44,974 bases of DNA from Bacteroidota bacterium. Its GTDB lineage: Bacteria; Bacteroidota; Bacteroidia; UKL13-3. Position numbers and translations under genes: made by a program. Where the stretch lies: assembly GCA_027488905.1 (NCBI GenBank), contig JAIYAT010000027.1, forward strand, positions 1 to 44,974, read 5' to 3'. Below, in pieces: positions 9,062-42,661 of the stretch. The notes under the pieces were generated by a model. The model worked only from the letters and a program-made list of their open reading frames with translations, searched no databases and was not told where the DNA came from. Each line of letters opens with the position of its first letter. The first letter of the stretch is position 1.

Positions 9062-10261
9062 TCACTTTTTTTTCAGTTCTGCCACAAAACCCTCTAACTG
9101 TGCTACAATTTGCTGGTTTTGAAAAGCAGTAAGTGCAAATTTACGCGCTTCTTCGCCAATTTTATCAGCCTCTAAAAGATTTGTAGTGTAAAATAGAATT
9201 GCGTTCTTAAATTCTTCAGGAGAATTTGCCAAAATAAAATGCTTTCCAGCAACGGCTTCAATTCCTTCCATTCCCTTGCTGCTACTGATAATGCATTTGC
9301 CTAAAGCCATGCCTTCCATCACCTTTACGCGCATGCCGCTGCCGCTCAATAATGGAATTACAAGTATTCCGTTTTCCTGCATGTATAAGTCGGAATTTTC
9401 TACTTCACCAACAACTTTTACGCCTTTTTGGTTCAACTTTAGAAAACTTTCTGGCATATTTCTACCTGCAATTTCAAAGCATAATTCTTTTTTTTCGGTT
9501 TGAACCAAAGGCCATATTTTCTCCAAAAAGTAAAGTACAGCAGCTTGGTTTGGCATCCAATCCATGCTGCCTAAATGAAATACTTTTGCTTGGTGTTTAA
9601 CAGGCAACATCTCAGTATTTCTTGGATAGAATCCTACTGGATAGTACAAAGTTGGAACCTTAATATTTAGAGCTGCATAGTGCAAGGCATCTGCTTTTGT
9701 GATGGCCAGAATTCCGTCGAATTTAGCACTCAAAGCAAGTTCTTCTTTTTTAAGCTTAGCTGCTTGGCTTTTAACATAAAATGCCTTGAGCAAGTTTTTT
9801 TCAATTTTGGCTTGTTCTTGCCAAATGTTGAATTCGATATTATGACTTCTTAACAAGCAAATTGCATTAGTTTGATTTCTAACAAAGGGCAAGTATCTGG
9901 CTGTTTGAAGACTTTCAAATATCACTAAATCTGGCGCAAACGTTTGGATCAAACCGCCTAAAATAGCTTCAAACTCTTTTACATAAAACCTGCTTAGGAT
10001 ATATGATTCTTTTTTGAGAAGATTTATAATAGCCCCTTTGATGGTAATTGCATTGTCAATTTCAAATAAGTGAAAGTTAGATAGCTTTTTTACTTTTTCT
10101 GGTAAGGTTTCCCAATTCACATGATGTTTGCTGGTATTTAAAACGGCCGACACCAATTGATGCTGATTGTCGTTTAATCCTTGAAGGTGTGCATAAAAGG
10201 CAAGTGCACCTCCGTCTTTTATGGGCCAAGGAAATCTTGGAAGGATTTGCAGAATTTTCAT
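9062..10261 (-). CDS. Glycosyltransferase family 4 (GT-B fold)
   Basis: 399 residues. N-terminal acceptor domain (PRFPWPIKDGGALAFYAHLQGL) and C-terminal donor-binding domain with VFHLGSMDWMPNQAAV, the E-x7-E-like segment around SGSGMRVKVMEGMALGKCIISS, and GMEGI. This is the GT4 pattern for sugar transfer from a nucleotide-sugar donor. The substrate is unknown; location next to an LPS-transport permease suggests surface polysaccharide synthesis. It overlaps the lptF/G-type gene by four bases. The iterated 10-mer at 9497-9506 encodes VQT 253-255. Confidence 0.88.
   Translation of the reverse strand: MKILQILPRFPWPIKDGGALAFYAHLQGLNDNQHQLVSAVLNTSKHHVNWETLPEKVKKLSNFHLFEIDNAITIKGAIINLLKKESYILSRFYVKEFEAILGGLIQTFAPDLVIFESLQTARYLPFVRNQTNAICLLRSHNIEFNIWQEQAKIEKNLLKAFYVKSQAAKLKKEELALSAKFDGILAITKADALHYAALNIKVPTLYYPVGFYPRNTEMLPVKHQAKVFHLGSMDWMPNQAAVLYFLEKIWPLVQTEKKELCFEIAGRNMPESFLKLNQKGVKVVGEVENSDLYMQENGILVIPLLSGSGMRVKVMEGMALGKCIISSSKGMEGIEAVAGKHFILANSPEEFKNAILFYTTNLLEADKIGEEARKFALTAFQNQQIVAQLEGFVAELKKK
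9497..9506 (-). repeat. Iterated 10-mer, copy 3
   Basis: Inside the GT4 gene, encoding VQT 253-255; flanks match the extended consensus. Confidence 0.85.
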
Positions 10262-18116: not shown

Positions 18117-18860
18117 ATGAAAATAGTTGGAATTATCCCTGCGCGTTATGCAAGTACACGTTATCCTGGAAAACCTTTAATTAATATCATGGGCAAGTCT
18201 ATGATACAAAGGGTTTACGAGCGTGCCATGGAATCTAAATTGCTTACTAAGGTGGTTGTGGCTACTGATGATGCTCGTATTGTGAGCCATGTTGAAGAGT
18301 TTGGTGGGACTTGTTTGCTAACAGCTGCTAATCATCCAAGTGGCACAGACAGGTGTTTTGAAGCTTTAAGCCTTTTGGATGAAAAGTTTGATTATGTTAT
18401 CAATATTCAAGGAGATGAACCGTTTATTGTGCCAGAACAAATTGATGAGTTGGCAAAGGTTTGTGATGGAGAGGCAGAACTTTTAACCCAAATGATAAAG
18501 GTAAGTAGTGAAGAATCATTATTTGATGTAGGTGAGGTGAAAATTGTTTTGAACGATAGGCAAGAGGCCTTGTATTTTAGTAGAATGGTAATTCCTTTTT
18601 TAAAGGGAGTTGACCAAAGTCAGTGGCACCTAAACCATAATTATTACAGACATGTAGGTATGTACGCTTACAGGGCCGATGTTTTAGAAACCCTAACCAA
18701 ACTCAAACCTTCATCTTTGGAGCAGGCCGAAAGTTTAGAGCAATTGAGATGGTTAGAAAATGGGTTTAAAATACGTTTGGTTCAAACCAAATATGAAAGT
18801 CATTGTATAGATACACCTGAAGACTTGGAAAAAGTGCTCAGAACTTTGGCTGATGAATAA
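18117..18860 (+). CDS. kdsB: 3-deoxy-manno-octulosonate cytidylyltransferase
   Basis: 247 residues, normal length. Nucleotidyltransferase motif IIPARYASTRYPGKPL at 5-20, VVATDD, INIQGDEPF with the metal-binding Asp, and HVGMYAYRADVL. It activates Kdo as CMP-Kdo for the LPS inner core, in the cytoplasm. Single gene unit on the plus strand; its stop is separated by one base from the convergent namZ stop. The iterated 10-mer at 18779-18788 encodes VQT 222-224 near the C-terminus. Confidence 0.96.
   Translation: MKIVGIIPARYASTRYPGKPLINIMGKSMIQRVYERAMESKLLTKVVVATDDARIVSHVEEFGGTCLLTAANHPSGTDRCFEALSLLDEKFDYVINIQGDEPFIVPEQIDELAKVCDGEAELLTQMIKVSSEESLFDVGEVKIVLNDRQEALYFSRMVIPFLKGVDQSQWHLNHNYYRHVGMYAYRADVLETLTKLKPSSLEQAESLEQLRWLENGFKIRLVQTKYESHCIDTPEDLEKVLRTLADE
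18779..18788 (+). repeat. Iterated 10-mer, copy 5
   Basis: Inside kdsB, encoding VQT 222-224, with flanks TTT and AAA giving a 7-2-6 inverted repeat or longer. Confidence 0.85.
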
Positions 18861-21289: not shown

Positions 21290-22060
21290 ATGAAAAAATT
21301 GCTTCCGAATTGGTTAAAGTTTCCATTTTGGTATATTTTTAAATCACCTCAAAGGGAGTTGGGCTCTAAAAGTGTTTACCTTGATTTATTGGGCATATTT
21401 AGGTTTTTATTGGTTCAAACCTTACCCTTTAAAAAAAGTACAAAACTTAGTATTTGTGTAGGAAATTTGAACAGAAATGCAATGATTTTGAACTATTTGT
21501 TGCCAAGTTTAAACAAGCTAGAATATAAAGAAAATATTGAATTAGTATTAGTAGATTTTGGGAGTGATAATTTCGAAGATCTCAAAGAAAACCTTGAAGA
21601 TCGATGGGCTGGCAGATTAAACATTATTTCTTTGAAGGAGCCATTTACTCGTTCTAGGGCTATTAATGTTGCGGTTGCTGCCGCAAGTGAAGAGTTGTTG
21701 TTTATTGCCGATGCTGATTTCTCATTACCTAAAAATCTAATTGAGCTCTGTTATCGTTACACTTTATTTAATAGCATTTGGTTTCCCATTGTATTTTATC
21801 TTTATAAAGACAAGCCAGAGCGATTTGGAAAAGGAAATGGAGAATGGATGCAATGGGGCGGAAAAGGAATTTTGTCAATCAAAAGAAGTAAGTTTTTAGA
21901 AATGAATGGTTTAAGTGAAAAGTATAAATCTTGGGGAGGGGAAGATGAGGAATTTTGGTTTCGTTGCCATCAGAATGGGGAAGTGGTAATAAGAAGTAGG
22001 TGTAGGGAATTGCTTCACCATTGGCATCCCAGTTTTAATCCTAAATATAATAATTTGTAG
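21290..22060 (+). CDS. Glycosyltransferase family 2, galactosyltransferase-related type
   Basis: 256 residues. GT-A fold signs: LVLVDFGSDNFEDL, RSRAINVAVAAASEELLFIADADFSLP with the DxD metal-binding motif (DAD), and the acceptor-side motif SWGGEDEEFWFRCHQNG, typical of galactosyltransferase-like C-terminal domains. There is a long hydrophobic, basic N-terminal segment of about 45 residues that may attach to the membrane. Begins three bases after the FtsX-like stop. Contains the iterated 10-mer at 21412-21421, encoding VQT 42-44. Sugar and acceptor unknown. Confidence 0.82.
   Translation: MKKLLPNWLKFPFWYIFKSPQRELGSKSVYLDLLGIFRFLLVQTLPFKKSTKLSICVGNLNRNAMILNYLLPSLNKLEYKENIELVLVDFGSDNFEDLKENLEDRWAGRLNIISLKEPFTRSRAINVAVAAASEELLFIADADFSLPKNLIELCYRYTLFNSIWFPIVFYLYKDKPERFGKGNGEWMQWGGKGILSIKRSKFLEMNGLSEKYKSWGGEDEEFWFRCHQNGEVVIRSRCRELLHHWHPSFNPKYNNL
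21412..21421 (+). repeat. Iterated 10-mer, copy 6
   Basis: Inside the first GT2 gene, encoding VQT 42-44. Confidence 0.85.
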
Positions 22061-22094
22061 TTTGGAATAATAGATAGAAGTAGTGTTATATTTG
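22061..22094 (+). promoter_or_regulatory. Promoter of the second GT2 gene
   Basis: TTTG at 22061-22064, a 22-bp spacer, then TATATTTG at 22087-22094, an exact box. The expected transcript start falls at or next to the ATG at 22102, so the mRNA would be nearly leaderless. Confidence 0.6.
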
Positions 22095-22101
22095 CAGTGC
22101 G

Positions 22102-22878
22102 ATGAAAAAGCCTTTAGTATCAATAATTACCCCTTCTTATAATCAGGGTTTTTGGCTTGAGGAAGCTATAAAATCAGTTTTGGCTCAGACTTACCCAAAT
22201 ATTGAGTACATTATCATAGATGGGGGTTCTACTGACAATTCAAAAGAAATAATTGAGCGATATCAAGATAAACTAGCCTATTGGCATAGTAAATCCGATG
22301 ACGGTCAAGCAGATGCATTGAACATAGGCTTTAGTAAAGCAAAGGGTGATTTAATTGCCTATTTAAATGCTGATGATCTTTTATATCCAACAGCTGTTGA
22401 AGGCATAGTTAATGCATATGAGGTAAACCAAGAGTTTGGCATTTATTATGGACTTTGCAAAACCATAGATGGAGAAGGAACAGAACTTATTGGGTTACAA
22501 GGAGACCAAACTAAATTTGATCAATTGGTTACTAATGGAATGCTTCCATATATTTATCAGCCCGCTTGTTTTTTTAACAAGCAATTTTTGGGCAGTGAAA
22601 ATTTGGTAAAAACAAAATATAAGTATGCTTTTGATTATGACCTTATACTTTCAATTGCAAAAAGTAAGAGTATTTTATTTTTGAACCGAGAAATTGCTAG
22701 TTATCGTGTACATGATAAAAGCAAATCTCATTTGCATAAAGTAGAAGCATATAAAGAAAAGCTTAGTATTCAAGAAAATTACAATTCAAAAGATTTTTTG
22801 AAATTGAAATGGAAGCGTTTAAAACTTGTATTGGCTGAAAAGACAGGAAAAATGGTGAATGGAAGAGCAGCTTTATAG
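22102..22878 (+). CDS. Glycosyltransferase family 2
   Basis: 258 residues. Classic GT2 N-terminus VSIITPSYNQGFWLEEAIKS, IEYIIIDGGSTDNS, and the metal motif NADD in GDLIAYLNADDLLYP. The C-terminal part is short and basic. It transfers a sugar from a nucleotide donor, probably for a surface glycan. It has its own promoter, and its transcript can end at a hairpin that lies inside the convergent pfkA gene. Confidence 0.9.
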   Translation: MKKPLVSIITPSYNQGFWLEEAIKSVLAQTYPNIEYIIIDGGSTDNSKEIIERYQDKLAYWHSKSDDGQADALNIGFSKAKGDLIAYLNADDLLYPTAVEGIVNAYEVNQEFGIYYGLCKTIDGEGTELIGLQGDQTKFDQLVTNGMLPYIYQPACFFNKQFLGSENLVKTKYKYAFDYDLILSIAKSKSILFLNREIASYRVHDKSKSHLHKVEAYKEKLSIQENYNSKDFLKLKWKRLKLVLAEKTGKMVNGRAAL

Positions 22879-31407: not shown

Positions 31408-33675
31408 CTATTTTATTTGCAGCTTCGCAAATTTAAGCACCAACACTTTTCGGCCATGTTCGGTAAAATCTATGGTTGCTTTTTTATTGTCGCCAATGCC
31501 TTCCATAAGCACCACCTCGCCATCGCCAAAACGCTGGTGCGCCACCTTATCACTTACTTTTAGCCCACTGGTATCATCGGCCACAAAATCTGGGTTGATG
31601 GGCGTTGCGGGCTTAGGCGTTGGTTTTTGTAAAGCCAGAACTTTTTTGGGTAAACCTGTCATGGTGCCTGTTCTTGGCGCCTCATCTTTGCCAAAACTTT
31701 GTCCACCACGGTTGCCAAACAAATTATCGAATTGTAAAAACTTAGGGTCAATTTCTTGTAAGAACCTACTTGGTTCGCTATTGATGATGTTGCCAAACTT
31801 AAATCTACTGGTAGCAAAACTTAGCGTAAGTTTTTTCATGGCTCGGGTAATGGCCACGTAAAACAAACGGCGTTCTTCTTCTAACTCTTGCCTACTATTT
31901 AGCGACAATTGTGAAGGAAACAAATTTTCTTCCAATCCTACCACATGCACATATTTGTACTCCAAACCTTTAGCCGAGTGAATGGTCATAAGGCTTACAT
32001 GGTCTTGGTCTTGGCTCTTGTCTTTATCGTCGTTGGTTAGTAAAGCAACATCTGCCATAAACTCATCCAAGGTGCGTGTTTTTACTACTCCTTCTTCGTC
32101 AATTAAATCTTCAATGCTAAACTCTTTGATACCATTGAGAAGTTCTTCAGTGTTTTCGTAACGGGCAATTCCTTCTATGGTTTTGTCTTCGTAAAGGGCT
32201 TTTAGCAATCCACTTTGCTTGGCAATGTGCATGGCCACATCATAGGCATTTCGGTTGAGTAAGGTTTGAAAGCTTTTAATCATAAGCACAAAATCTTCAA
32301 CCGGACCTTGCAGTTTAATTCCAAACTCCCGTGCTTTATCCATAAAAGTCCACAAGCTCACTTTGTTTTCATCTGCGGCTAGCATCATTTTTTCGAGGGT
32401 GGTTTTACCAATGCCGCGGGTTGGGTAGTTAATGATGCGCTTAAGGGCTTCTTCATCATTTGGGTTGATCACAACACGGTAATATGCCAATAAATCTTTC
32501 ACCTCTTTACGCTGGTAGAAGGAAAGTCCGCCATAGATTTTATATGGAATGTTTATTTTGCGCAGCGCCTCTTCCATCGACCTACTTTGCGCGTTGGTTC
32601 TATACAGAATTGCAAAATCTTTGTGGTGCAATTGGCCATTCATCTTATCCTGAAAAATAGAGGAGGCCACCATCTTTCCTTCTTCATTATCAGTGAGTGC
32701 ACGCAAAACCCGAATTTTCTCACCTGTTTCGTTGTCGGTCCAAACTTGCTTAGCAATTTGCTCTTTATTTTTTTCGATGATAGAACTTGCCGCATTTACA
32801 ATGTTTTGCGTGCTGCGGTAGTTTTGCTCTAGTTTGAAGATTTTTACATCGGTATAGTCTTTCTGAAAGCCAAGGATATTTCTGATGTTAGCTCCTCTAA
32901 AGGCATAAATACTTTGCGCATCATCGCCTACTACGGCAATATTTTCATGTACTGCGGCCAATTTTTTCAGAATCATGTATTGGGCATGGTTGGTATCCTG
33001 AAACTCATCTACCATGATATATTTAAATTGATGTTGGTAGCGGTGCAATACTTCTGGATGAAAGTGAAACAAGCGGAAAGTATTTACCAATAAATCGTCA
33101 AAATCCATGGCACCTGCTCTAAAGCAGCGTTCTTGGTACACTTTAAATATATGGGAGAACTTGGGTTTGCCACTGCTAATGTCTTGCTCGGTAAGTTCGC
33201 CATTTTGAATATATTCATCTGCGGTTATTAAGTTGTTTTTAGCCGAAGAAATCCTTGATAAAATGCTCGAAGGTTTGTACACTTTATCGTCTAACTTATT
33301 TTCATTAAGTATAGTTTTGATTAAGCTTTTGCTATCGTCGGTATCATAAATAGTAAAATTTTTAGGGTAGCCAATTTTTTCACTTTCAGAACGTAGGATT
33401 CGGGCGAAGATGCTATGAAAGGTTCCCATCCAAACATTTCTGCCCTCAGAGCCTGCGGCTTCCATGATACGATGACGCATTTCTTTGGCTGCTTTATTGG
33501 TAAAAGTTAAGGCTAAAATTTGAAACGAATCGGCGCCACTGCGCAACATGTGCACAATTCTATAAGTGAGCACACGGGTTTTTCCTGAGCCCGCGCCAGC
33601 TATAATCATCACAGGTCCTTTTATTTGTTCAACGGCCGCGCGCTGCGCCGGATTTAAAGTTGCTAAATACTCCAC
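31408..33675 (-). CDS. uvrD: UvrD/PcrA-type superfamily 1 DNA helicase
   Basis: 755 residues. Motif I AGAGSGKT at 26-33, motif Ia TFTNKAAKEMRHRI, motif II VDEFQDTN, motif III GDDAQSIYAFRGA, motif IV QNYRST, and motifs V/VI LMTIHSAKGLEY and VAITRAMKKLTLSF are all intact. The C-terminus (about 690-755) has a Tudor-like end (VSDKVAHQRFGDGEVVLMEG) as in PcrA. A 3'-5' helicase for DNA repair and replication restart. Divergent from the M20 peptidase gene. Confidence 0.95.
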   Translation of the reverse strand: MEYLATLNPAQRAAVEQIKGPVMIIAGAGSGKTRVLTYRIVHMLRSGADSFQILALTFTNKAAKEMRHRIMEAAGSEGRNVWMGTFHSIFARILRSESEKIGYPKNFTIYDTDDSKSLIKTILNENKLDDKVYKPSSILSRISSAKNNLITADEYIQNGELTEQDISSGKPKFSHIFKVYQERCFRAGAMDFDDLLVNTFRLFHFHPEVLHRYQHQFKYIMVDEFQDTNHAQYMILKKLAAVHENIAVVGDDAQSIYAFRGANIRNILGFQKDYTDVKIFKLEQNYRSTQNIVNAASSIIEKNKEQIAKQVWTDNETGEKIRVLRALTDNEEGKMVASSIFQDKMNGQLHHKDFAILYRTNAQSRSMEEALRKINIPYKIYGGLSFYQRKEVKDLLAYYRVVINPNDEEALKRIINYPTRGIGKTTLEKMMLAADENKVSLWTFMDKAREFGIKLQGPVEDFVLMIKSFQTLLNRNAYDVAMHIAKQSGLLKALYEDKTIEGIARYENTEELLNGIKEFSIEDLIDEEGVVKTRTLDEFMADVALLTNDDKDKSQDQDHVSLMTIHSAKGLEYKYVHVVGLEENLFPSQLSLNSRQELEEERRLFYVAITRAMKKLTLSFATSRFKFGNIINSEPSRFLQEIDPKFLQFDNLFGNRGGQSFGKDEAPRTGTMTGLPKKVLALQKPTPKPATPINPDFVADDTSGLKVSDKVAHQRFGDGEVVLMEGIGDNKKATIDFTEHGRKVLVLKFAKLQIK

Positions 33676-33679
33676 CCTA

Positions 33680-33687
33680 CGAAAGTA
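33680..33687 (-). promoter_or_regulatory. Possible -7 box of uvrD
   Basis: Minus strand TACTTTCG, the same variant as the rpmH promoter, five bases before the ATG at 33675. No clear upstream TTTG. Confidence 0.35.
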
Positions 33688-33750
33688 ACTCTTCTCTGTT
33701 TGTGCTTGTCCTTAAAATTTCAACACCCTTCCAATTTCTGATAAAATATA

Positions 33751-33758
33751 TAGCTTTG
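33751..33758 (+). promoter_or_regulatory. -7 box of the M20 peptidase gene
   Basis: TAGCTTTG, exact TAnnTTTG, 15 bases before the ATG at 33774. It supports that start over an upstream one at 33660. Confidence 0.55.
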
Positions 33759-33773
33759 ACAAAATTTTATTAT

Positions 33774-35150
33774 ATGTCAGCCACTTACTTAAACCAACAT
33801 AAAGACCGTTTTCTGAACGAGTTATTCGAATTGTTACGCATTCCTTCTATCAGTGCAGACTCTGCTTTTAAAGGCGATGTGGAAAAAGCAGCTATTTTTA
33901 TCAAAGACAAATTAATTGCTGCTGGGGCAGATGCGGTTGAAATTTGCCCAACTGCTGGTCATCCTATTGTATATGGAGAAAAAATCATAGACCCTGCATT
34001 GCCAACGGTGCTAGTTTACGGACATTACGATGTGCAACCTGCAGTGCCGCTTGAATTATGGGATACACCTCCTTTTGAGCCACAAGTTAGAAAAACCGCA
34101 ATTCACCCAGATGGAGCCATCTTTGCACGTGGTGCTTGCGATGATAAAGGTCAAGTGTACATGCACCTCAAAGCCTTTGAAATTATGATGGCTGAAAATA
34201 GCTTGCCTTGCAATGTAAAATTTATGATTGAGGGTGAAGAAGAGGTTGGTTCAAGCCACCTTGGCGATTTTTGTATTGCCAACAAAGAGAAACTCAAAGC
34301 TGATGTAGTGCTTATTTCTGATACTTCTATCATTGCCAATGACATTCCAAGTATCGATTGTGGCTTACGTGGCTTGTCATATGTTGAAGTTGAAGTTACC
34401 GGTCCAAACCGCGATTTGCACAGTGGCGTTTATGGTGGAGCAGTGGCTAACCCCATCAATATTTTGGCCAAAATGATTGCCAGCATGCACGATGAAAACA
34501 ACCACATCACCATTCCAGGGTTTTATGATAAAGTATTAGAATTGAGCCAAGAAGAAAGAACCTTGCTTAACCAAGCACCATTTGATTTGGAAGCTTATAA
34601 AAAAGACTTAGACATCAATGATATTTGGGGAGAAAAAAGTTTCAATGTGTTAGAGCGCACAGGCATTAGACCAACCTTAGATTGCAATGGCATTTGGGGT
34701 GGATACATTGGTGAAGGCGCAAAAACAGTTCTGCCTTCAAAAGCTTTTGCAAAAATTAGCATGCGCTTGGTGCCAAACCAATCTTCAAATGAAATCACAG
34801 ATTTATTTAAGCGTCATTTCGAAAGCATTGCACCTGCTGGTGTAAAAGTAGAAGTTAAGCCGCACCATGGTGGCGAACCTGTCTTAACGCCAATAGATTC
34901 TAAGGCTTACAAGGCAGCTGAATATGCCATGGAAAAAACCTTTGGTAAAAAACCTGTTCCTACTCGTGGTGGTGGAAGTATTCCAATTGTGGCTTTGTTT
35001 GAAAGAGAATTAGGGTTAAAATCAGTCTTAATGGGTTTTGGTTTAGACAGCGACGCGTTGCACTCACCAAATGAGCATTATGGTTTGTTTAACTATTTTA
35101 AAGGCATAGAAACTATCCCTTACTTCTTCGAAAAATTTGCAGAAGCATAA
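33774..35150 (+). CDS. M20 family metallopeptidase (dipeptidase)
   Basis: 458 residues from the ATG at 33774 (MSATYLNQHKDRFLNELFELL). Zinc-site residues: His84 in GHYDVQP with Asp86, Asp123 in GACDDKGQ, and the acidic EGEEEVGS at 153-160 with the catalytic and metal-binding Glu residues; a dimerisation domain follows, and HSPNEHY near the C-terminus provides the last ligand. No signal peptide, so cytoplasmic; closest to CNDP-type dipeptidases. Single gene unit. Confidence 0.92.
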   Translation: MSATYLNQHKDRFLNELFELLRIPSISADSAFKGDVEKAAIFIKDKLIAAGADAVEICPTAGHPIVYGEKIIDPALPTVLVYGHYDVQPAVPLELWDTPPFEPQVRKTAIHPDGAIFARGACDDKGQVYMHLKAFEIMMAENSLPCNVKFMIEGEEEVGSSHLGDFCIANKEKLKADVVLISDTSIIANDIPSIDCGLRGLSYVEVEVTGPNRDLHSGVYGGAVANPINILAKMIASMHDENNHITIPGFYDKVLELSQEERTLLNQAPFDLEAYKKDLDINDIWGEKSFNVLERTGIRPTLDCNGIWGGYIGEGAKTVLPSKAFAKISMRLVPNQSSNEITDLFKRHFESIAPAGVKVEVKPHHGGEPVLTPIDSKAYKAAEYAMEKTFGKKPVPTRGGGSIPIVALFERELGLKSVLMGFGLDSDALHSPNEHYGLFNYFKGIETIPYFFEKFAEA

Positions 35151-35246: not shown

Positions 35247-38200
35247 ATGAAAAAGACCTGCAATTTAACCTGTATTGCCTTATTTATTTTGGCCATGAGT
35301 TTGGCCTCAAGCCTACAAGCGCAGAAAAAGTATGGCTTCGAGTGGCTTCGACCTTATATGCCTTACCTAAAAATAAAGTTGATAGATAAGGGCATTTACC
35401 GTTTAGATTCAGTTGCCATGCAAGCAGCAGGCTTTAATTTGGTTGGTTTGAACCCAAACCGTTTACAAGTATTTAGAGATGGGGTAGAGCTGCCAATTTT
35501 TTTGCAAGGGGCAACAGATAATGTTTTTAATGCCACAGATTATCTTGCCTTTTATGGCGAACCCAATTCAGGTAATTTAGACAAAGAACTATATGTTAAT
35601 GCCCAAGAGCAACCGCATTCCTTTAGAAGTCAGTATACCGATACTGCTGTATATTTTCTAACTGTTTTGCCAGATACTTCTTTGGTTCAACCCTTAAGAT
35701 TTGCTAATTATGTTGCCACCGATTACAACGCCTACGCTCCGGAAAGCCAGTTTTTACTAAGTGATTTTTGGGCGCCAATGGAAGATTATTATTATGGTAG
35801 TTTTATTCCAGCCAGCGTAAAATATTATATCAGTGATTATGGTGGAGCAGAGGGCATGATGAGTTATTTAATAGGCTTGGGTCAAACCAGAACCCAAACC
35901 TTTGCCACTCCCAATTGGCTTAGCGGGCAAATTGCTACTGCCGAAATTAAGGTAAATGGTTCTTCTGATTTCTTTTTGGCTAATCCAAATGCGCCAAACC
36001 ACCATTTGCGGATTTATGCCATAGCTGCAAGTAACCAAGAGTTTTTGCTTTGCGATACTACTTTTAGAGGTTATGGACCGCGTGTGATTCAAAAACAAGT
36101 ACCTTCAAATTTGGCAGGAAACACCTTGCGTTTTAGGTTTGAAGTGGTGAATGATTTATCGGTTGGTTCAGACTTTATTGGTATTTCTTATGTGCAACTT
36201 AATTATAGCAAAGGAGCAGATTGGCCCGGTAGCCAAGCTAAACTGGTTTTGCAAAATCCAATCAATGCCTCCAAAACCTTGCTGCAGTTCAATAATTTCA
36301 CAGGTAATACACCCATCGCTTGGGATGTAAAAGCAGGAGTTAGAAGTGCAGGACAAAAGCAAAGTAACCTTGCACAAGTGCTATTGCCCTATGTATCTGG
36401 GCCACGTATAATTTATTTGCAGGAAGCCTCAGATTTTTTGGTGCCAGCTAGTATTCAAAAAGTTACTATCCCCAATTTTTCTCCTTCCAATATTGAGTTT
36501 CTATTGGTTTCTCACCCTAAATTAGAGCCATCTGTCACTGCTTATGCAAATTATCGCTCACAGCGTTTTCAAACTTTGTTGGCCTTTACCCCCGACTTAT
36601 ATAATTTTTATGCCTACGGGTATGAGCATCCTTTAGCGGTTAGAAGGTTTGCTGCGCATTTTTATGACAAGCAATCTAAGAAGCCTAACTTCTTATTGCT
36701 GTTAGGGAGAGGGTATCAGAATAATTTGATTAGAAGTAATTCAATAAATTATAATTTAAATTTAGTTCCTTCTATTGGTGTTCCCTCCTCAGATAATTTG
36801 TTTACCAATGGCCTAATTGGAAATGATGGAGCGCCAGCAATTGCCACAGGAAGAATTCCTGCTGCCTCCAATACCGAAGTTCAAAATTATTTAGATAAAC
36901 TAATTGCTTACGAAACTCGCCCAGATAGCATTGCTGCCTGGCGCAAAAATTACATGCATTTAAGCGGAGGAGAGAATGCTGGGCAACAAGCAGATTTTAG
37001 GAACCAACTTCGTTCTATTGGCAATGAAGTATTAGATGCCCCAGTAGGTGCTAATTTACTTTCATATTATAAATCGAGCACCGAGCCCACAGAAAACAAA
37101 CTGAAGGAAACACTTATCAATCATCAAAATAATGGTTTGAACCTACTCACCTTTTACGGTCATGGTTCGCTTACCGTTCTCGACATGGATTTTGGCGGCA
37201 TCCAAGAATTAAGTCCTAGCAACAAGCCTGCATTTTATTATTTTAATGGCTGTAATATTGGTAATGCCAATGAAGTTGACCCATTGGGCACAGGCTTGGT
37301 GTATGGCAAAGACTTTATTTGTGCTGCCAATAAAGGTGCAATTGGTTGGTTGGCGCATACCAACTTAACATTTACAAGTAATTTGGAGCAGCAAATGCGC
37401 TTGTTTTACCAGCAATTAAGTGGGGCAGGTTATGGCAAGTCTATTGGTGAAAACCTCAAGGCAATTTTACAACTAAGCTCTGCAGGCAATGAACCTTTTG
37501 GTCGCTCTCATGCCTTGCAATTGCTGTTGCAAGCAGACCCAGCCTTGGTTTTATACGCGCCAGCTTTAGCAGATTATACGGTTAGTACAAATAATTTATT
37601 TGTGTTTCCAGAAAATGCAACGGTTCAAAACGATTCTTTAGCTATTGGAATCATCCTTTCTAACAATGGAAAAGCAAACAATAATGATACACTTGTCATT
37701 GAAGTTGAAAGAACTTTGGCAAACAACAAATTGCTAACTTTTGAGCCTTTGAAAGTGATAGCACCTTTGAACCAAGATACTTTCTATTTTTGGATAAAAG
37801 GTCTATCTACAGAAGAAATTGGAAACAATGCCTTTAGGGTAATTTTGAATAAGGCAAAATCATTGGCCGAAAGTAATTTTCAAAACAATGAGGCAACCTT
37901 GAATTACTTTTTGCCAGGCAGTGGCGTGCAAGCTTTATTGCCTGCTAAGTTTGCTATTGTCAATTTTGATACAGTTACGATGATGGCTCAAAACAACAAT
38001 TTATTTGCGCCAGAAACAGAGTATGTGATGGAGCTTGATACCGCTTCAAATTTTGCTTCAATCGGAATGTACCATTTGAGTTCTGGGGTCATAAAGGCTA
38101 AACATTTGGTGCAATGGAAAACTCAAATTCCTTCTATCGATTCTTTAACTTGGTTTTGGCGTGTGAAACAAAACTTGCCAGAAGCAGAAGGAGGCATTTG

Positions 38201-40280
38201 GAGTGGCCAAAGTTTTACGCATATCAAAGCAAATGTTGAAGGGTGGCACCAAGATAAGTATGCGCAATTAAAACAAGCTAGTGCTACCAGATTCATAGTG
38301 TTTGAAGACAGTTTGCAGCGCATTTCCTTTAGCAATAATGAATTGGTGCTGGGCATGGAAAATCGCCGTTGGGATGCTAGAAATATGGGTGTTACAATTC
38401 CATACTTGCTTAATGAAGGTGTATTTAATTGCATGTCTCAAGGTACAGTTGTCTTAGTGTTTGAGCCCTTTCAGGTAGATTGGCCTTATGAATTACCTAA
38501 TTATCCTTTTAACTGTGCTTATGTTCAAAACAATAAAAATAGGCAAAGCAATAGATATTATCCTTTTAATACCAATACGATAGAAGGAGAACAAGCATTT
38601 AGAACATTTATAGATTCTGTTCCAGATGGATACTTTGTTGCTGCATTTAGCCGCTACCAAACAAGTATCAAAAATTGGGAACAGGCAACAAAAAATGCAT
38701 TTTTGAAAATTGGCGGCCAAAAGGTTCAGCAAATTGGAAGCGATTACACCGCTTGGGCAATTATTGGTAAAAAAGGTGACGCACCTGGTTCTGCCGTGGA
38801 GGATACCGTTTATAATGATGGTTTTTTTCCAACATTTCCGCCAGGGCCAAATGACCCTCAAGACAATTTAAAATTGGCCATTCGAAAGAACTTTGTATTA
38901 AGGTGGTTCGAAGGCGATTTCACAACCTCACCTGTTGGTCCAGCTTTAGCTTATGATAAAGTTAAAGTAAGTCTGTCAGAAACAGAAGCGCAAGGTAAAG
39001 GCAGATGGTGGTATGATGTTATTGGGCAAAATCAGCTTGGGGTAGACACTGTTTTTTATTTCGGTTTGAACCAAACGGAGTTTTCGGTAAATACGATTGA
39101 CGCGAAACGTTTCCCTTATTTGAAATTGAAGTTTCATTTTGTAGACAGTGCAAACAGAACGCCTCATGTGATTAATTATGCTCAGGTTGTTTATACGCCT
39201 GTAAGCGAATTAACACTTGATGTAAATGATAATTATACTTTCTATAAAGGACAATTGCCTCAAGGAGATTCAGTGCGATTAGAACTTACTGCTAGAAATA
39301 TTAGCAATAAAACTTCGGACAGTGTTTGGGTATTTGCGCAAGCCACAGATGCCAATCGTTTCAATGCTTGGAGTGCAAGTTGGAAAATCCCAGGTATTGC
39401 TGCCATGTCTAAAGAGCGCATTAAGGTGGTGCTGCCAACCAAGAGTTTGCAAGGGAAGCACAAGCTCAACATTCAACTTAATCCAAACAAACTTGTTCCA
39501 GAAATTAGCTATAACAATAACTTCCTGCAACAAGACTTTAAGGTATTGCGCGACCAACAAAATCCTTATTTGGAGGTAACTTTTGATGGGCAACGCATTT
39601 TTAATGGCGACATAGTTTCGCCTTCACCCTATATTAGAATAAGTGCTACGGATAAAAATCCATACTTACTGCAGCAGGACACCGCTAATTTTAGTTTGTA
39701 TTTGAAAGTGCCGGGCGAATTTGAATTTCAAAGGGTATTTATTGGCAATGGCGAATTGAATTTTATTCCAGCCACAGATGCCAATAACAGAGCAGCACTT
39801 GAGTATAAACCTGCCTTTAAAAAGGATGGTATTTACACCTTAAAAGTAAATGCAAAAGACGCCAGTGGAAACCTTGCCGGTGCAAATGATTATGAAATTG
39901 ATTTTAATGTAATTAGCAAAAGTTCAATTACGCATTTTTATCCTTATCCAAATCCGTTTACCACACAAATGCGCTTTGTTTTCACCTTAACGGGTTCGGT
40001 GGTTCCAGAGCAACTTTTGGTAAGGATTTTAACGATAAATGGGAAGGTTGTAAGAGAAATTCGCAAAGAGGAGTTTGGTTCAATACGAATTGGAAATAAC
40101 ATTAGCGAATTTGCTTGGGATGGCACAGACATGTATGGCGATAGGTTAGCCAATGGAGTTTATTTATACCAAGTATTTACCCAAATAAATGGTCAATCTA
40201 TTGAACATAGAACTACCCGAGCCAAAGACGAATCGCAGTACTTCATTCAAAATACAGGTAAGATTTATTTACTCAGGTAA
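35247..40280 (+). CDS. Giant C25 family cysteine peptidase, PorU-like, with T9SS C-terminal domain
   Basis: 1677 residues. Signal peptide MKKTCNLTCIALFILAMSLA with cleavage near AQA. The N-terminal part (about 40-150) has the PorU-like KIKLIDKGIYRLDS segment. The C25 catalytic pair is visible: His639 in FYGHGS and Cys669 in FNGCNIGN, 30 residues apart as in gingipains. Two CARDB-like beta regions (about 785-890 and 1330-1430), then a FlgD/T9SS-type C-terminal domain from about 1565 (YPNPFTTQMRFVF, LANGVYLYQVF). This size and layout fit what is called PorU2; PorU itself is the T9SS sortase that removes the C-terminal signal and attaches LPS. Three copies of the iterated 10-mer encode GLN at 67, 630 and 1273. 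Ends 16 bases inside the convergent S9 gene. Confidence 0.87.
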   Translation: MKKTCNLTCIALFILAMSLASSLQAQKKYGFEWLRPYMPYLKIKLIDKGIYRLDSVAMQAAGFNLVGLNPNRLQVFRDGVELPIFLQGATDNVFNATDYLAFYGEPNSGNLDKELYVNAQEQPHSFRSQYTDTAVYFLTVLPDTSLVQPLRFANYVATDYNAYAPESQFLLSDFWAPMEDYYYGSFIPASVKYYISDYGGAEGMMSYLIGLGQTRTQTFATPNWLSGQIATAEIKVNGSSDFFLANPNAPNHHLRIYAIAASNQEFLLCDTTFRGYGPRVIQKQVPSNLAGNTLRFRFEVVNDLSVGSDFIGISYVQLNYSKGADWPGSQAKLVLQNPINASKTLLQFNNFTGNTPIAWDVKAGVRSAGQKQSNLAQVLLPYVSGPRIIYLQEASDFLVPASIQKVTIPNFSPSNIEFLLVSHPKLEPSVTAYANYRSQRFQTLLAFTPDLYNFYAYGYEHPLAVRRFAAHFYDKQSKKPNFLLLLGRGYQNNLIRSNSINYNLNLVPSIGVPSSDNLFTNGLIGNDGAPAIATGRIPAASNTEVQNYLDKLIAYETRPDSIAAWRKNYMHLSGGENAGQQADFRNQLRSIGNEVLDAPVGANLLSYYKSSTEPTENKLKETLINHQNNGLNLLTFYGHGSLTVLDMDFGGIQELSPSNKPAFYYFNGCNIGNANEVDPLGTGLVYGKDFICAANKGAIGWLAHTNLTFTSNLEQQMRLFYQQLSGAGYGKSIGENLKAILQLSSAGNEPFGRSHALQLLLQADPALVLYAPALADYTVSTNNLFVFPENATVQNDSLAIGIILSNNGKANNNDTLVIEVERTLANNKLLTFEPLKVIAPLNQDTFYFWIKGLSTEEIGNNAFRVILNKAKSLAESNFQNNEATLNYFLPGSGVQALLPAKFAIVNFDTVTMMAQNNNLFAPETEYVMELDTASNFASIGMYHLSSGVIKAKHLVQWKTQIPSIDSLTWFWRVKQNLPEAEGGIWSGQSFTHIKANVEGWHQDKYAQLKQASATRFIVFEDSLQRISFSNNELVLGMENRRWDARNMGVTIPYLLNEGVFNCMSQGTVVLVFEPFQVDWPYELPNYPFNCAYVQNNKNRQSNRYYPFNTNTIEGEQAFRTFIDSVPDGYFVAAFSRYQTSIKNWEQATKNAFLKIGGQKVQQIGSDYTAWAIIGKKGDAPGSAVEDTVYNDGFFPTFPPGPNDPQDNLKLAIRKNFVLRWFEGDFTTSPVGPALAYDKVKVSLSETEAQGKGRWWYDVIGQNQLGVDTVFYFGLNQTEFSVNTIDAKRFPYLKLKFHFVDSANRTPHVINYAQVVYTPVSELTLDVNDNYTFYKGQLPQGDSVRLELTARNISNKTSDSVWVFAQATDANRFNAWSASWKIPGIAAMSKERIKVVLPTKSLQGKHKLNIQLNPNKLVPEISYNNNFLQQDFKVLRDQQNPYLEVTFDGQRIFNGDIVSPSPYIRISATDKNPYLLQQDTANFSLYLKVPGEFEFQRVFIGNGELNFIPATDANNRAALEYKPAFKKDGIYTLKVNAKDASGNLAGANDYEIDFNVISKSSITHFYPYPNPFTTQMRFVFTLTGSVVPEQLLVRILTINGKVVREIRKEEFGSIRIGNNISEFAWDGTDMYGDRLANGVYLYQVFTQINGQSIEHRTTRAKDESQYFIQNTGKIYLLR
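35445..35454 (-). repeat. Iterated 10-mer, copy 11
   Basis: Inside the C25 gene, encoding GLN 67-69; flanked by additional GGTT and AAACC half-sites. Confidence 0.85.
37134..37143 (-). repeat. Iterated 10-mer, copy 12
   Basis: Inside the C25 gene, encoding GLN 630-632, seven residues before the catalytic His639. Confidence 0.85.
39063..39072 (-). repeat. Iterated 10-mer, copy 13
   Basis: Inside the C25 gene, encoding GLN 1273-1275; flanks match the extended consensus. Confidence 0.85.
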
Positions 40281-42661
40281 CGGTTAAGCCAAGTATCCAT
40301 TTCCCAAAGCATGTGAAGGATGTTTTCTCTTGCAGCATAGCCATGACTTTCAAATGGCAATAGCACCAACCTTGCAGTTCCTCCATTTCCTTTAACGGCC
40401 TGAAACAATCTTTCACTTTGTAATGTAAATGTGCCAGGATTATTATCAGCATCACCATGGATAAACAAAATTGGTGTTTTGAGTTGGTCGGCATAGGTAA
40501 ATGGAGACATCTTTTGATAAACTTCTTTGGCCTGCCAATAGCTTCGCTCCTCTGCCTGAAACCCAAAAGGCGTTAAGGTTCTATTGTATGCGCCGCTGCG
40601 TGCAATGCCTGCTGCAAATAGTTTGGAATGAGCCAATAAATTGGCCGTCATAAAAGCACCATAAGAGTGGCCCATTACTGCACATCGTTTTGGATCAACC
40701 ACACCCATGCTATCTACTGCTTTTATAGCAGCTTCTGCGTCGGCCACCAATTGTTCAAGGTAGGTGTCGTTAGGCTCTTGGTCGCCTTTGCCTATAATTG
40801 GAAACTGAGTATCTTCTAGCACTGCAAAGCCGCGTGTTGCCCAATAAATGGGAGATGCCCAATTGATTGAAATAAAAGCATGTGGAGACTCTTTTACCTG
40901 TGAAGCGTTTTTATCATCTTTAAACTCTGTTGGGTAGGCTTCCATTAACAAAGGTAAACGACCCATTTTTTCTTTGGAATATCCTGCTGGCAAATAAAGC
41001 GTAGCTGATAGTTTAACGCTATCCTTTCTAGTGTAAAAAATCTTTTGTTTGCTCACTTGCATCAAAGCTTTATAAGGGTTTTCCTTAAACGTAATCTGAA
41101 TAGGTTTTGCAGAAGATTTTAAATTTCTAAGGTAAAGATTTGGATACATTTTTGGACTTTCGATGCTGGTAAGTGCAACTAGTTTATCCCAATCTGTAAT
41201 GCGCAATAAACGCTCATAAGTGGTTTTGCCTTCTGCGCGCCAAAGACGTTTGGTTTGCATTAAGTTTAGGTCGTATTCGTCTATAAATGGCTTATTACCT
41301 TCTGGTGAGTATCCTTCACCTGTAAGGTAACATTTAAGGCCGTCTTTACTTAATTTGAGCGACTCTCTATTAAACTGATTGCTCTCAGTAACAAAACTAC
41401 CTGGGTCGCTATAAACATCTTCTGTGCTTCTGTTAAAAATGATTTTCTGAGAGCCTGGAATTCTTTCATTAATGTAATAGGTTTTGGTGTTTCGTGTTTT
41501 ATACCAAAAATCACTAATAATATAAATCCCTGCTTCAGAAGTTGTAATACTTCTAATCCTATTTTGCAAGGAGCCTAATAATACTATTTGATTAAATGGT
41601 GCATCGCTTATATAAACGTCATCTCTGCGGTCTGCCTTTTCTGCAGGATTACCGCCATCAGGTGCTTCAAACCAAATTAAAGTTGATGGCTTTGCTTGAT
41701 GCCAAAAAATGTTTCGCTTACCAGCTTCCACTGCATCAAAGCTAATTGGCATTTGGTCTTGCAAAGGTCTACTATAGAACAACTCATTCGTCTTGTTTTT
41801 TATATTAAAAACATAGGTTTGACTAGCGAAAAAAGAGTAAGGAAATAGGTAGCTATAGGGCTCATTGATAATTTCATATAAGAGATATGTTTCATCTGGC
41901 GAAAGGCTGTATCGCTTGTAAATAGCCTCTGGAAGCAAAGTGTTGGTGCTACCATCAAAACTTGCAAACACAATTTCTGAAGCCGCGTAATATTTAAATT
42001 GGGCCTCATCCTGCTTGTTTTTTAGTAAGTCTTGGTAGGTTCTAGCAGCAGATTTAGATCCATTTGCATCTTGGGTGGAAGGGCCGGTTGGCAGGACCTT
42101 ACTAGTTTTATAGGGAAGTTTACCTTTTTTGCTTTGCGCATAAACACCCGATTCATCATTGGCCCATGTGTATGGATTTCCAAGCACATTGTTCAATTCA
42201 TTTCTTAAGTATTCATTGGCTTGGCCTGTTTTTAAATTAACCACCCATAGCGATAAACCTTGTGGGTTAACTTGAATAAAACTCAAATAATTTTCTTTCG
42301 GGGAGAAGCTAATGTTTTTGGCTTTTAAGGGATAAGGCAGATTGTATAACACAATGGGCTTATTACCTTGAAGCAATTGCAAAGTTAGCTTGGTATAATA
42401 GCTACTTCTTGCAGCATCAAAGGTTTCTGGGTTAATGCGCAAACCTGCAAGGCGTAACTCAGGTTCCGACAGTTCTTCCAAGCTGTTGTAAAGCGGGCGT
42501 TCCATTAATAAAAGGTACTTGTTGCTTTTACTCACCATGGATTGCGCGGGGGCAGACACATCTGCCAACTCCATAATCTCTTTGGGTGGCAATTGGTAAT
42601 TGGTTTGAGCAAAGCTTTGGAAACTTGCTAAAATTAATAATAGTAGAACTATATTTTTCAT
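40265..42661 (-). CDS. S9 family prolyl oligopeptidase-type serine peptidase, exported
   Basis: 798 residues. Signal peptide MKNIVLLLLILASFQSFAQ. A beta-propeller-like N-terminal region (to about 520) and an alpha/beta-hydrolase domain with nucleophile Ser666 in GHSYGAF, acid near Asp739 in IHGDADNNPG and His near 773 in FESHGYA. Resembles exported glutamyl/dipeptidyl S9 peptidases of Bacteroidota that take peptides in the periplasm. Lies 23 bases after the membrane lipoprotein gene on the same strand, so the two probably form a transcript. Confidence 0.92.
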   Translation of the reverse strand: MKNIVLLLLILASFQSFAQTNYQLPPKEIMELADVSAPAQSMVSKSNKYLLLMERPLYNSLEELSEPELRLAGLRINPETFDAARSSYYTKLTLQLLQGNKPIVLYNLPYPLKAKNISFSPKENYLSFIQVNPQGLSLWVVNLKTGQANEYLRNELNNVLGNPYTWANDESGVYAQSKKGKLPYKTSKVLPTGPSTQDANGSKSAARTYQDLLKNKQDEAQFKYYAASEIVFASFDGSTNTLLPEAIYKRYSLSPDETYLLYEIINEPYSYLFPYSFFASQTYVFNIKNKTNELFYSRPLQDQMPISFDAVEAGKRNIFWHQAKPSTLIWFEAPDGGNPAEKADRRDDVYISDAPFNQIVLLGSLQNRIRSITTSEAGIYIISDFWYKTRNTKTYYINERIPGSQKIIFNRSTEDVYSDPGSFVTESNQFNRESLKLSKDGLKCYLTGEGYSPEGNKPFIDEYDLNLMQTKRLWRAEGKTTYERLLRITDWDKLVALTSIESPKMYPNLYLRNLKSSAKPIQITFKENPYKALMQVSKQKIFYTRKDSVKLSATLYLPAGYSKEKMGRLPLLMEAYPTEFKDDKNASQVKESPHAFISINWASPIYWATRGFAVLEDTQFPIIGKGDQEPNDTYLEQLVADAEAAIKAVDSMGVVDPKRCAVMGHSYGAFMTANLLAHSKLFAAGIARSGAYNRTLTPFGFQAEERSYWQAKEVYQKMSPFTYADQLKTPILFIHGDADNNPGTFTLQSERLFQAVKGNGGTARLVLLPFESHGYAARENILHMLWEMDTWLNRYLSK

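Follow-up and report, generated by a model that had tools for sequence, protein, structure and literature searches.

The question raised by this locus is whether a long C25 peptidase is a second sortase of the type IX secretion system (T9SS) or a secreted gingipain-like protease. The window, that is, the whole stretch of 44,974 nucleotides that was analyzed, comes from a Bacteroidota bacterium. A first-pass annotation had described in it a 1677-residue open reading frame with a catalytic pair at His639 and Cys669, and both the frame and the two residues were borne out by the translation, the motif positions and the alignments. The gene starts as follows:

35247–40280, + strand: PorU2 ORF, 1677 aa (open frame; NF052324, 662.8 bits, cut-off 450)
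35247–35321, + strand: probable Sec signal peptide, about residues 1–25 (by eye from the translation)

An M20 dipeptidase gene lies upstream on the same strand (33660–35150) and a convergent S9-type peptidase gene downstream (40265–42661); neither neighbor matched any T9SS family. The contig of the window stops 4.7 kb past PorU2.

The protein was assigned through an NCBIfam profile search. It matched NF052324 ('putative type IX secretion system sortase PorU2') over residues 12–881, and a whole-genome search with the same profile gave 652.8 bits for the gene. The PorU profile, NF033707, aligned over residues 40–782 with 204.5 bits, below its cut-off of 420, leaving PorU2 as the only one of the two families matched above cut-off. 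A canonical porU was looked for elsewhere in the genome and is present on contig C9 (C9:46803–50144, 1295.1 bits), directly followed by porV (480.4 bits). A FastTree tree of the C25 region split 30 PorU cleanly from 114 PorU2 sequences, with a support of 1.0 and a branch of 2.1 substitutions per site. The segments for this tree and for the Arg-column alignments described below were chosen by the pattern GH...C, and are thus silent on the dyad itself; 114 of the 115 distinct PorU2 sequences passed the pattern, and the 115th was left out. None of the 14 control genomes scored above cut-off in the PorU, PorU2 and PorV2 family searches. Judged by the two profile scores, the separate porU and the clean tree split, the window protein is a PorU2, a paralog of PorU rather than a long PorU, as the first-pass annotation had suggested. 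The family had already been named by NCBI, and the window protein adds one member to it. That the protein could simply be a classical PorU lengthened by extra domains is suggested by the span of the PorU profile alignment and by the common fold; the NF033707 score, the true porU on C9 and the C25 tree rule out this identity, which we regard as extremely improbable.

Two AlphaFold2 models were obtained, for residues 26–900 (pLDDT 90.1) and 885–1677 (pLDDT 89.3, pTM 0.65). The domains are laid out as follows:

35280–37889, + strand: PorU2-type N-terminal region including the peptidase, residues 12–881 (NF052324; model compared with 6za2)
36501–37553, + strand: peptidase C25 domain, residues 419–769 (PF01364, E = 4.6e-52; RgpB, Z = 35.1)
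37554–37922, + strand: CARDB/Ig-like domain, about residues 770–892 (3idu, Z = 12.1, 109 residues, rmsd 2.4)
38550–38780, + strand: ILEI (FAM3/POMGnT1-stem-like) domain, residues 1102–1178 (PF15711, 35.2 bits, cut-off 27)
39189–39554, + strand: second CARDB-like domain, about residues 1315–1436 (3idu, Z = 12.7, 110 residues, rmsd 2.8)
39549–40277, + strand: PorU-like C-terminus, Ig-like domain and T9SS C-terminal domain (CTD), residues 1435–1677 (sequence match to PorU)

The N-terminal model aligned with P. gingivalis PorU (6za2) over 577 residues (Z = 22.3, rmsd 6.4). Its peptidase aligned with RgpB over 321 residues (Z = 35.1, rmsd 2.3) and with Kgp (Z = 32.5); the PorU alignment spans a longer multi-domain stretch than these two. 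The pLDDT values in ten-residue blocks were 79 around His639 and 72 around Cys669.

The CARDB-like and FlgD-like regions of the first-pass annotation fall below cut-off by sequence in the window protein (CARDB, PF07705, residues 1337–1427, 19.7 bits, cut-off 22.7; FlgD_ig, residues 1577–1643, 25.0 bits, cut-off 27). They are nevertheless backed by the relatives, with E values of 0.01 or better in 16 of the 28 family sequences scanned for CARDB and in 28 of 28 for FlgD_ig, and the models contain two stretches that match CARDB folds. The family alignments used 28 of 43 sequences (A1) and 50 of 75 (A2, A3). Much shorter relatives were rare (4 of 42, with 1080, 1113, 1124, and 1345 aa).

The ILEI domain had been missed before. 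Its score exceeds the Pfam gathering score, and it was detected at an E value of 0.01 or better in 16 of the 28 sequences. The family profile matched FAM3A (E = 4.4e-7), FAM3C, FAM3B, and the POMGnT1 stem (E = 0.0018). FAM3 structures were absent among the structural matches listed for the C-terminal model by Foldseek and structural alignment, and the ILEI assignment therefore rests on sequence profiles. Foldseek with the whole C-terminal model gave chiefly generic multi-Ig chains, with PorU 6za2 at rank 2. FAM3C and the POMGnT1 stem are reported to bind sugars (PMC9802357). In the printed alignment, PorU2 has no counterpart to the Arg in the FRDxW motif of FAM3A and FAM3C, which makes sugar binding by the PorU2 domain doubtful.

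The active site is defined by three codons:

37161–37163, + strand: catalytic His639 (alignments; gingipain R pairing)
37251–37253, + strand: catalytic Cys669 (alignments; gingipain R pairing)
37362–37364, + strand: Asn706, in a column that is Arg in 30 of 30 PorU (alignments)

His639 lies within YGHGS and Cys669 within NGCN, and a direct alignment with gingipain R matches them to its catalytic dyad. Both residues are conserved in every one of the 44 rows of one alignment (42 relatives, the window protein, designated P0001, and PorU of the same genome) and in 75 of 75 rows of another (74 relatives and P0001). The two collections overlap partly and were not selected for the dyad; an inactive scaffold is ruled out by this invariance.

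According to PMC4560394, Arg722 of P. gingivalis PorU is conserved among PorU proteins, missing from gingipains and suggestive of sortases; that it acts in PorU is a proposal of the same paper. The corresponding column, about 32 residues past the Cys, holds Arg in all 30 PorU and in 1 of 114 PorU2 sequences (two gaps). Asn, Ser, Asp, and Gly are the commonest residues of PorU2 at this place. The two alignments unrestricted by the GH...C pattern contained Arg in 1 of 75 and 1 of 44 rows; the bearers are presumably L171 and the PorU of the window's genome, respectively. The PorU-fixed positions 668, 675, 688, 704, and 706 (P0001 numbering) are all relaxed in PorU2 to a varying degree; position 688, for instance, is Glu in 73% of PorU2 and Lys in the window protein. 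The Arg is also missing in PorU2 copies from genomes without PorU (L082, L087 twice, and L088), and in the PorU2-like protein of L091. The dyad indicates a peptidase. Sortase chemistry is not established for PorU2, since the PorU-specific Arg is missing, and the amine-accepting chemistry of PorU cannot be assumed for it.

A copy of an iterated motif had been pointed out just before the catalytic His:

37134–37143, + strand: copy of the dispersed 10-mer GGTTTGAACC in the PorU2 ORF, encoding Gly630-Leu631-Asn632

The copy is real and ends six residues ahead of His639. The 10-mer has 15 sites in the window, three of them in the PorU2 ORF, which is not unusual for 11% of the window (binomial 0.23). 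On this value, a functional meaning in the active site was rejected; the link looks like coincidence.

At the C-terminus, residues 1434–1655 share 30% identity with the last part of the genome's own PorU, and positions 860–1080 of the PorU profile match the tail with 76.5 bits. Compared with residues 935–1157 of 6za2, the tail gave Z = 10.2 over 199 residues but an rmsd of 13.2; its two domains therefore do not superpose as one body. The type A CTD profile, TIGR04183, scored 23.2 bits on the window protein (cut-off 23), compared with 50–61 bits for the top-scoring CTDs among the cargo proteins listed for this genome. The median length from the NPF motif, located in 84 of 115 PorU2 and 28 of 30 PorU, to the C-terminus was 106 residues in PorU2 and 92 in PorU. 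Published P. gingivalis CTDs, counted from different starting points than these NPF-based lengths, measure 67–88 residues when processed, and 96 (PorZ) and 108 (PorU) when unprocessed (PMC11285876). In genome G178, a second PorU2 copy has a strong type A CTD (59.7 bits).

These data bear on the reading that the protein is a gingipain-like hydrolase, exported as T9SS cargo and either surface-bound or secreted, which degrades external proteins and plays no role in sorting. It would fit the marginal TIGR04183 match, the type A CTD of the second G178 copy, and a catalytic domain that superposes better on RgpB and Kgp than, over a longer span, on PorU; the missing Arg is likewise a trait ascribed to gingipains (PMC4560394). 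A plain secreted gingipain, one of the two options of the first-pass annotation, is nevertheless disfavored, because the N-terminal region and the C-terminus are PorU-like; the other option, a second sortase, is the one that the missing Arg leaves without established chemistry. The distribution also argues against the hydrolase. NF052324 matched in all 53 genomes of the window's family, in 52 of them above cut-off, and only four (G016–G019) carried two copies above cut-off. With the PorV2 linkage described next as a further counterargument, we consider the hydrolase distinctly unlikely.

A PorV-like gene was found directly upstream of PorU2, on the same strand and at a distance of −61 to 171 bases, in 52 of 124 PorU2 copies. 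Four representatives of these genes scored 459–547 bits with NF052325 (PorV2). The 124 copies come from 121 loci, with duplicates retained (L103/L117 and L094/L123 appear, from their equal lengths, to be identical contigs). Of the 72 copies lacking an adjacent PorV2, 11 begin so close to a contig end (under 1.2 kb) that no such neighbor could be visible; in L140 and L185, PorV2 appears further off due to a cut ORF start. In G026, PorV2 is located about 60 bases downstream of PorU2. The PorV2 profile revealed no PorV2 adjoining PorU2 at 20 loci of the window's family, and none in the window. PorV2 is present in 51 of the 53 family genomes (50 above cut-off). In the window's genome it is found at C27:106437–107474 (426.9 bits, cut-off 325), unlinked to PorU2, and its profile scores identify it as PorV2 rather than PorQ or PorV. 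The window's contig carries none of this genome's five PorV-family matches. The earlier remark that no porV or other por genes accompany PorU2 is therefore correct within the window, but does not extend to the genome, with porU-porV on C9 and PorV2 on C27, or to PorU2 elsewhere, which often has PorV2 next to it. The genomic PorV2 adjoins genes for an O-antigen ligase, Wzz, and a flippase. This glycan theme is not general in the family, as Wzy_C occurred in 3 of 98 PorV2 neighbors (alignment set A7, 98 of 102 neighbors, four of L265 being left out).

The association was also examined in a phylum sample of 392 genomes, in which PorU2, PorU, and PorV2 scored above cut-off in 34, 269, and 72 genomes, respectively. 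PorU2 and PorV2 co-occurred in 26 genomes (26/34 and 26/72; odds ratio 22, uncorrected for kinship), leaving 8 of the 34 PorU2 genomes without PorV2 and 46 of the 72 PorV2 genomes without PorU2. PorV2 was above cut-off in 44 genomes of families f5 and f4, none of which had PorU2 above cut-off; PorV2 is therefore not exclusive to PorU2. From their size and genus spread, we take f5 and f4 to be Flavobacteriaceae and Weeksellaceae, the lineage that includes Flavobacterium, a model for the T9SS. No genome of these two families in the sample exceeded the PorU2 cut-off. A scan of named records with one conserved peptide of the tail, of which the best 80 of 584 were kept, contained PorU2-bearing records labeled Flavobacteriaceae or Chryseobacterium (L127, L171, and L189), so either the absence from Flavobacteriaceae and Weeksellaceae is not general or the labels are wrong. 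The same 80 records included Pedobacter, Sphingobacterium, Fulvivirga, Cyclobacterium, Pontibacter, Saprospiraceae, and Bacteroidales MAGs.

PorU2 is spread over many families of the phylum, usually beside a PorU in the genome. PorU accompanies it in 30 of the 34 PorU2 genomes and is absent from G059, G143, G178, and G321. The first three retain PorV, with 8, 52, and 96 type A CTD matches, respectively; in G321, type A and type B are represented by one match each, the former weak, no PorV exceeds its cut-off, and PorV2 adjoins PorU2. Three of these four genomes thus keep type A cargo and PorV, which speaks for PorU2 being a full second sortase, that is, an enzyme which, after cleaving the CTDs of clients, attaches their new C-termini to a surface polysaccharide; the acceptor for PorU is A-LPS, and PorU2 would use a different glycan. 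G234 and G372, however, retain PorV and have 33 and 14 type A matches, respectively, although no PorU or PorU2 exceeds the thresholds in them; surviving cargo is therefore no proof of a replacement sortase, and the proposition that PorU loss proves replacement by PorU2 was rejected.

PorU2 as an enzyme of type B cargo is not supported either. Type B CTD matches numbered 0–1 in six genomes of family f37 with a PorU2-like protein (so termed because its scores, 362–425 bits, do not reach the PorU2 cut-off); in G234 and G372, which have none above threshold, there were 18 and 10. In a comparison of 20 genomes, the numbers of type A and type B cargo both failed to track PorU2, and gave no sign of the different cargo set that had been envisaged for a second sortase.

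The gene context of PorU2 in the window's family pointed to glycans. A neighboring family, c4 (about 326 aa), gave below-cut-off Glycos_transf_1 matches in two of the four members scanned and, on these matches and inspection by eye, appears glycosyltransferase-like. Within the fetched stretches, c4 was found at 13 of 22 PorU2 loci, 0 of 20 PorU loci, and 0 of 18 PorV2 loci of this family. As the c4 profile was built from PorU2 neighbors, its presence there is by construction, and the independent evidence is the absence from the control loci and the genome-wide search. The latter found c4 in 44 of the 53 family genomes, on the contig of PorU2 in 29 of the 44 and at most 17 kb off; in G009, G045, and G049, it shares a contig with an apparent broken-off PorU2 end. 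Gene ends are approximate in these distances, and only the sharing of a contig and the distance in the window's genus were used. Family 2 glycosyltransferases like those neighboring PorU2 occurred at 11 of 22 PorU2, 2 of 20 PorU, and 1 of 18 PorV2 loci. Within three genes, PF00535 was found in 15 of 127 neighbors of PorU2 and at most 1 of 116 around PorU, and PF00534 six times around PorU2 and three times around PorU. At L104, the order is GT2, PorU2, c4, Wzx flippase, UDP-galactopyranose mutase, and, by eye, another probable glycosyltransferase. PorU2 often lies inside a polysaccharide cluster in the window's family; one ancestral arrangement inherited by many genera may explain most of the c4 and glycosyltransferase counts.

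In seven genomes of the window's genus with a shared contig, c4 is located about 10–17 kb downstream of PorU2. In the window's genome it is at C4:8967–9920. As the window's contig ends shortly after PorU2, the same arrangement beyond the contig end is possible, though unseen. The glycosyltransferase link is limited to some members of a single family, and the immediate neighbors of the gene in the window do not show it.

The relatives' polysaccharide clusters, with GT2, c4, Wzx flippase, and UDP-galactopyranose mutase, are a further point for the full second sortase, together with the architecture and CTD held in common with PorU and an ILEI-type domain whose fold has sugar-binding members in FAM3C and the POMGnT1 stem (PMC9802357). 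The loss of the PorU-type Arg, even in copies from PorU-less genomes, the unmatched FRDxW Arg, and the cargo kept by G234 and G372 without either enzyme weigh against it. We hold the full second sortase to be rather unlikely.

We put at about even the chance that PorU2 is a second surface C25 peptidase of the T9SS, probably associated with PorV2, which cleaves a subset of clients, glycan transfer being possible. Family membership, the intact dyad, the distinct clade, and the PorU-like fold and C-terminus are established, as are the PorV2 linkage elsewhere, the presence of PorV2 in the window's genome, and the glycosyltransferase-like linkage in relatives. The parallel is PorU, which is itself a T9SS client, keeps its CTD, and stays on PorV (PMC11285876, PMC10202324), receiving A-LPS from PorZ (PMC8545088). 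PorU2 would be exported by Sec and then by the T9SS via its own PorU-like CTD. We infer that the CTD probably stays on and docks PorU2 to a PorV-type barrel, most likely PorV2, and a subset of T9SS clients would then have their C-terminal signal, or another peptide, cleaved by the Cys-His dyad. In the window's family, the product may pass to a surface polysaccharide from the neighboring glycosyltransferases; this is the weakest step. A PorV2-docked second peptidase is the simplest model because both ends are those of PorU, the dyad is intact, and a PorV paralog is the genomic companion. On transfer onto a glycan, the indications are divided: the gene context and the FAM3-like module point towards it and the missing Arg away from it, and the step, plausible but unproven, is weakened by this loss.

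A bolder extension is that PorU2 and PorV2 form a second T9SS attachment station, in which a rebuilt active site and the FAM3-like module couple a subset of clients to a different surface polysaccharide from co-encoded glycosyltransferases, PorU2 being the sole PorU-type enzyme left in some Bacteroidota. We see this as unlikely.

The original observation and the PorU2 label were thus right, while the sortase function is putative. Four leads are added here: PorU and PorU2 differ in the Arg, PorV2 is kept though unlinked, an ILEI domain is present, and PorU2 is linked to glycosyltransferase-like genes in relatives. In the open literature searched, no paper used PorU2 as a name or dealt with PorV2, and none among the matches listed concerned a second PorU. 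PorU2 is a long, conserved protein, named by NCBI and apparently unstudied, whose true role is testable; the loss of the Arg, together with the PorV2 and glycosyltransferase-like associations, sharpens the choice between second sortase and protease into a testable question.

Compared with known systems, the window protein has no feature that excludes it from the NF052324 PorU2 family. It differs from other members in that its PorV2 is unlinked, whereas elsewhere 52 of 124 copies have PorV2 as the next gene; the 'sortase' of the family name is putative, and the PorU Arg is absent from the window protein. With P. gingivalis PorU (6za2) and the NF033707 family, it has in common the C25 dyad, the N-terminal domains, and the terminal Ig-like domain and CTD. 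Relative to the PorU of its own genome (1166 aa), it is about 500 residues longer, mainly between the peptidase and the tail, where the ILEI and second CARDB-like domains lie. The gingipains RgpB and Kgp (1cvr, 4ief, 4rbm) have the same peptidase fold and dyad, but PorU2 adds a PorU-type N-terminal region and C-terminus. The likeness to FAM3 proteins and the POMGnT1 stem (PF15711) is a profile match of residues 1102–1178, in which the FAM3 motif Arg has no counterpart in the aligned PorU2 stretch.

The PorV paralogue PorV2 (NF052325) was found to have a gene of ~220 aa directly upstream, as at L219:9993-10658. A homologue scan detected this gene at 16 of the 18 PorV2 loci of the window's bacterial family (L219, L227-L230, L252, L253, L255, and L257-L264), and no homologue at any PorU or PorU2 locus scanned. 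Pfam gave no match for the two copies scanned, nor did NCBIfam for the one scanned. It is possible that the gene encodes an unknown partner; it may also be a stable neighbor without any relation to PorV2.

For PorU2 (NF052324, the second PorU-like C25 peptidase), tandem duplication was observed at loci L083, L087, and L176, with PorV2 directly upstream of one copy of the two in these pairs. At the PorU Arg column, Arg was seen at L171 alone among 114 PorU2 sequences. Genome G178 of the phylum sample, which lacks PorU, carries a second PorU2 copy (contig C76, 211960-216843). This copy scores 59.7 bits for a type A CTD, a strong match, as if it had been turned into cargo.

Two other genomes of the sample, G234 and G372, contain T9SS cargo and PorV, and neither PorU nor PorU2 scored above the thresholds used. 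At these thresholds, no known C25 processing enzyme accompanies the cargo in either genome.

In the window itself, sugar genes are scattered over three places:

9062-10261, probable glycosyltransferase (assigned by eye)
18117-18860, CTP_transf_3 cytidylyltransferase
21290-22878, family 2 glycosyltransferase-like pair (assigned by eye)

The 10-mer GGTTTGAACC/GGTTCAAACC occurs at 15 sites in the window, approximately one per 3 kb (for example 3811, 3879, 9497, 12276, 30649, and 43384), 12 of which lie within genes. Two further stretches of the same genome were also rich in it (6 copies in 19 kb and 3 in 18 kb). The relatives' loci L122 and L229 held 4 copies in 23 kb and 2 in 17 kb, respectively, and 1.27 Mb of DNA from other relatives yielded a single copy. 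The 10-mer looks like a dispersed motif at the species level.
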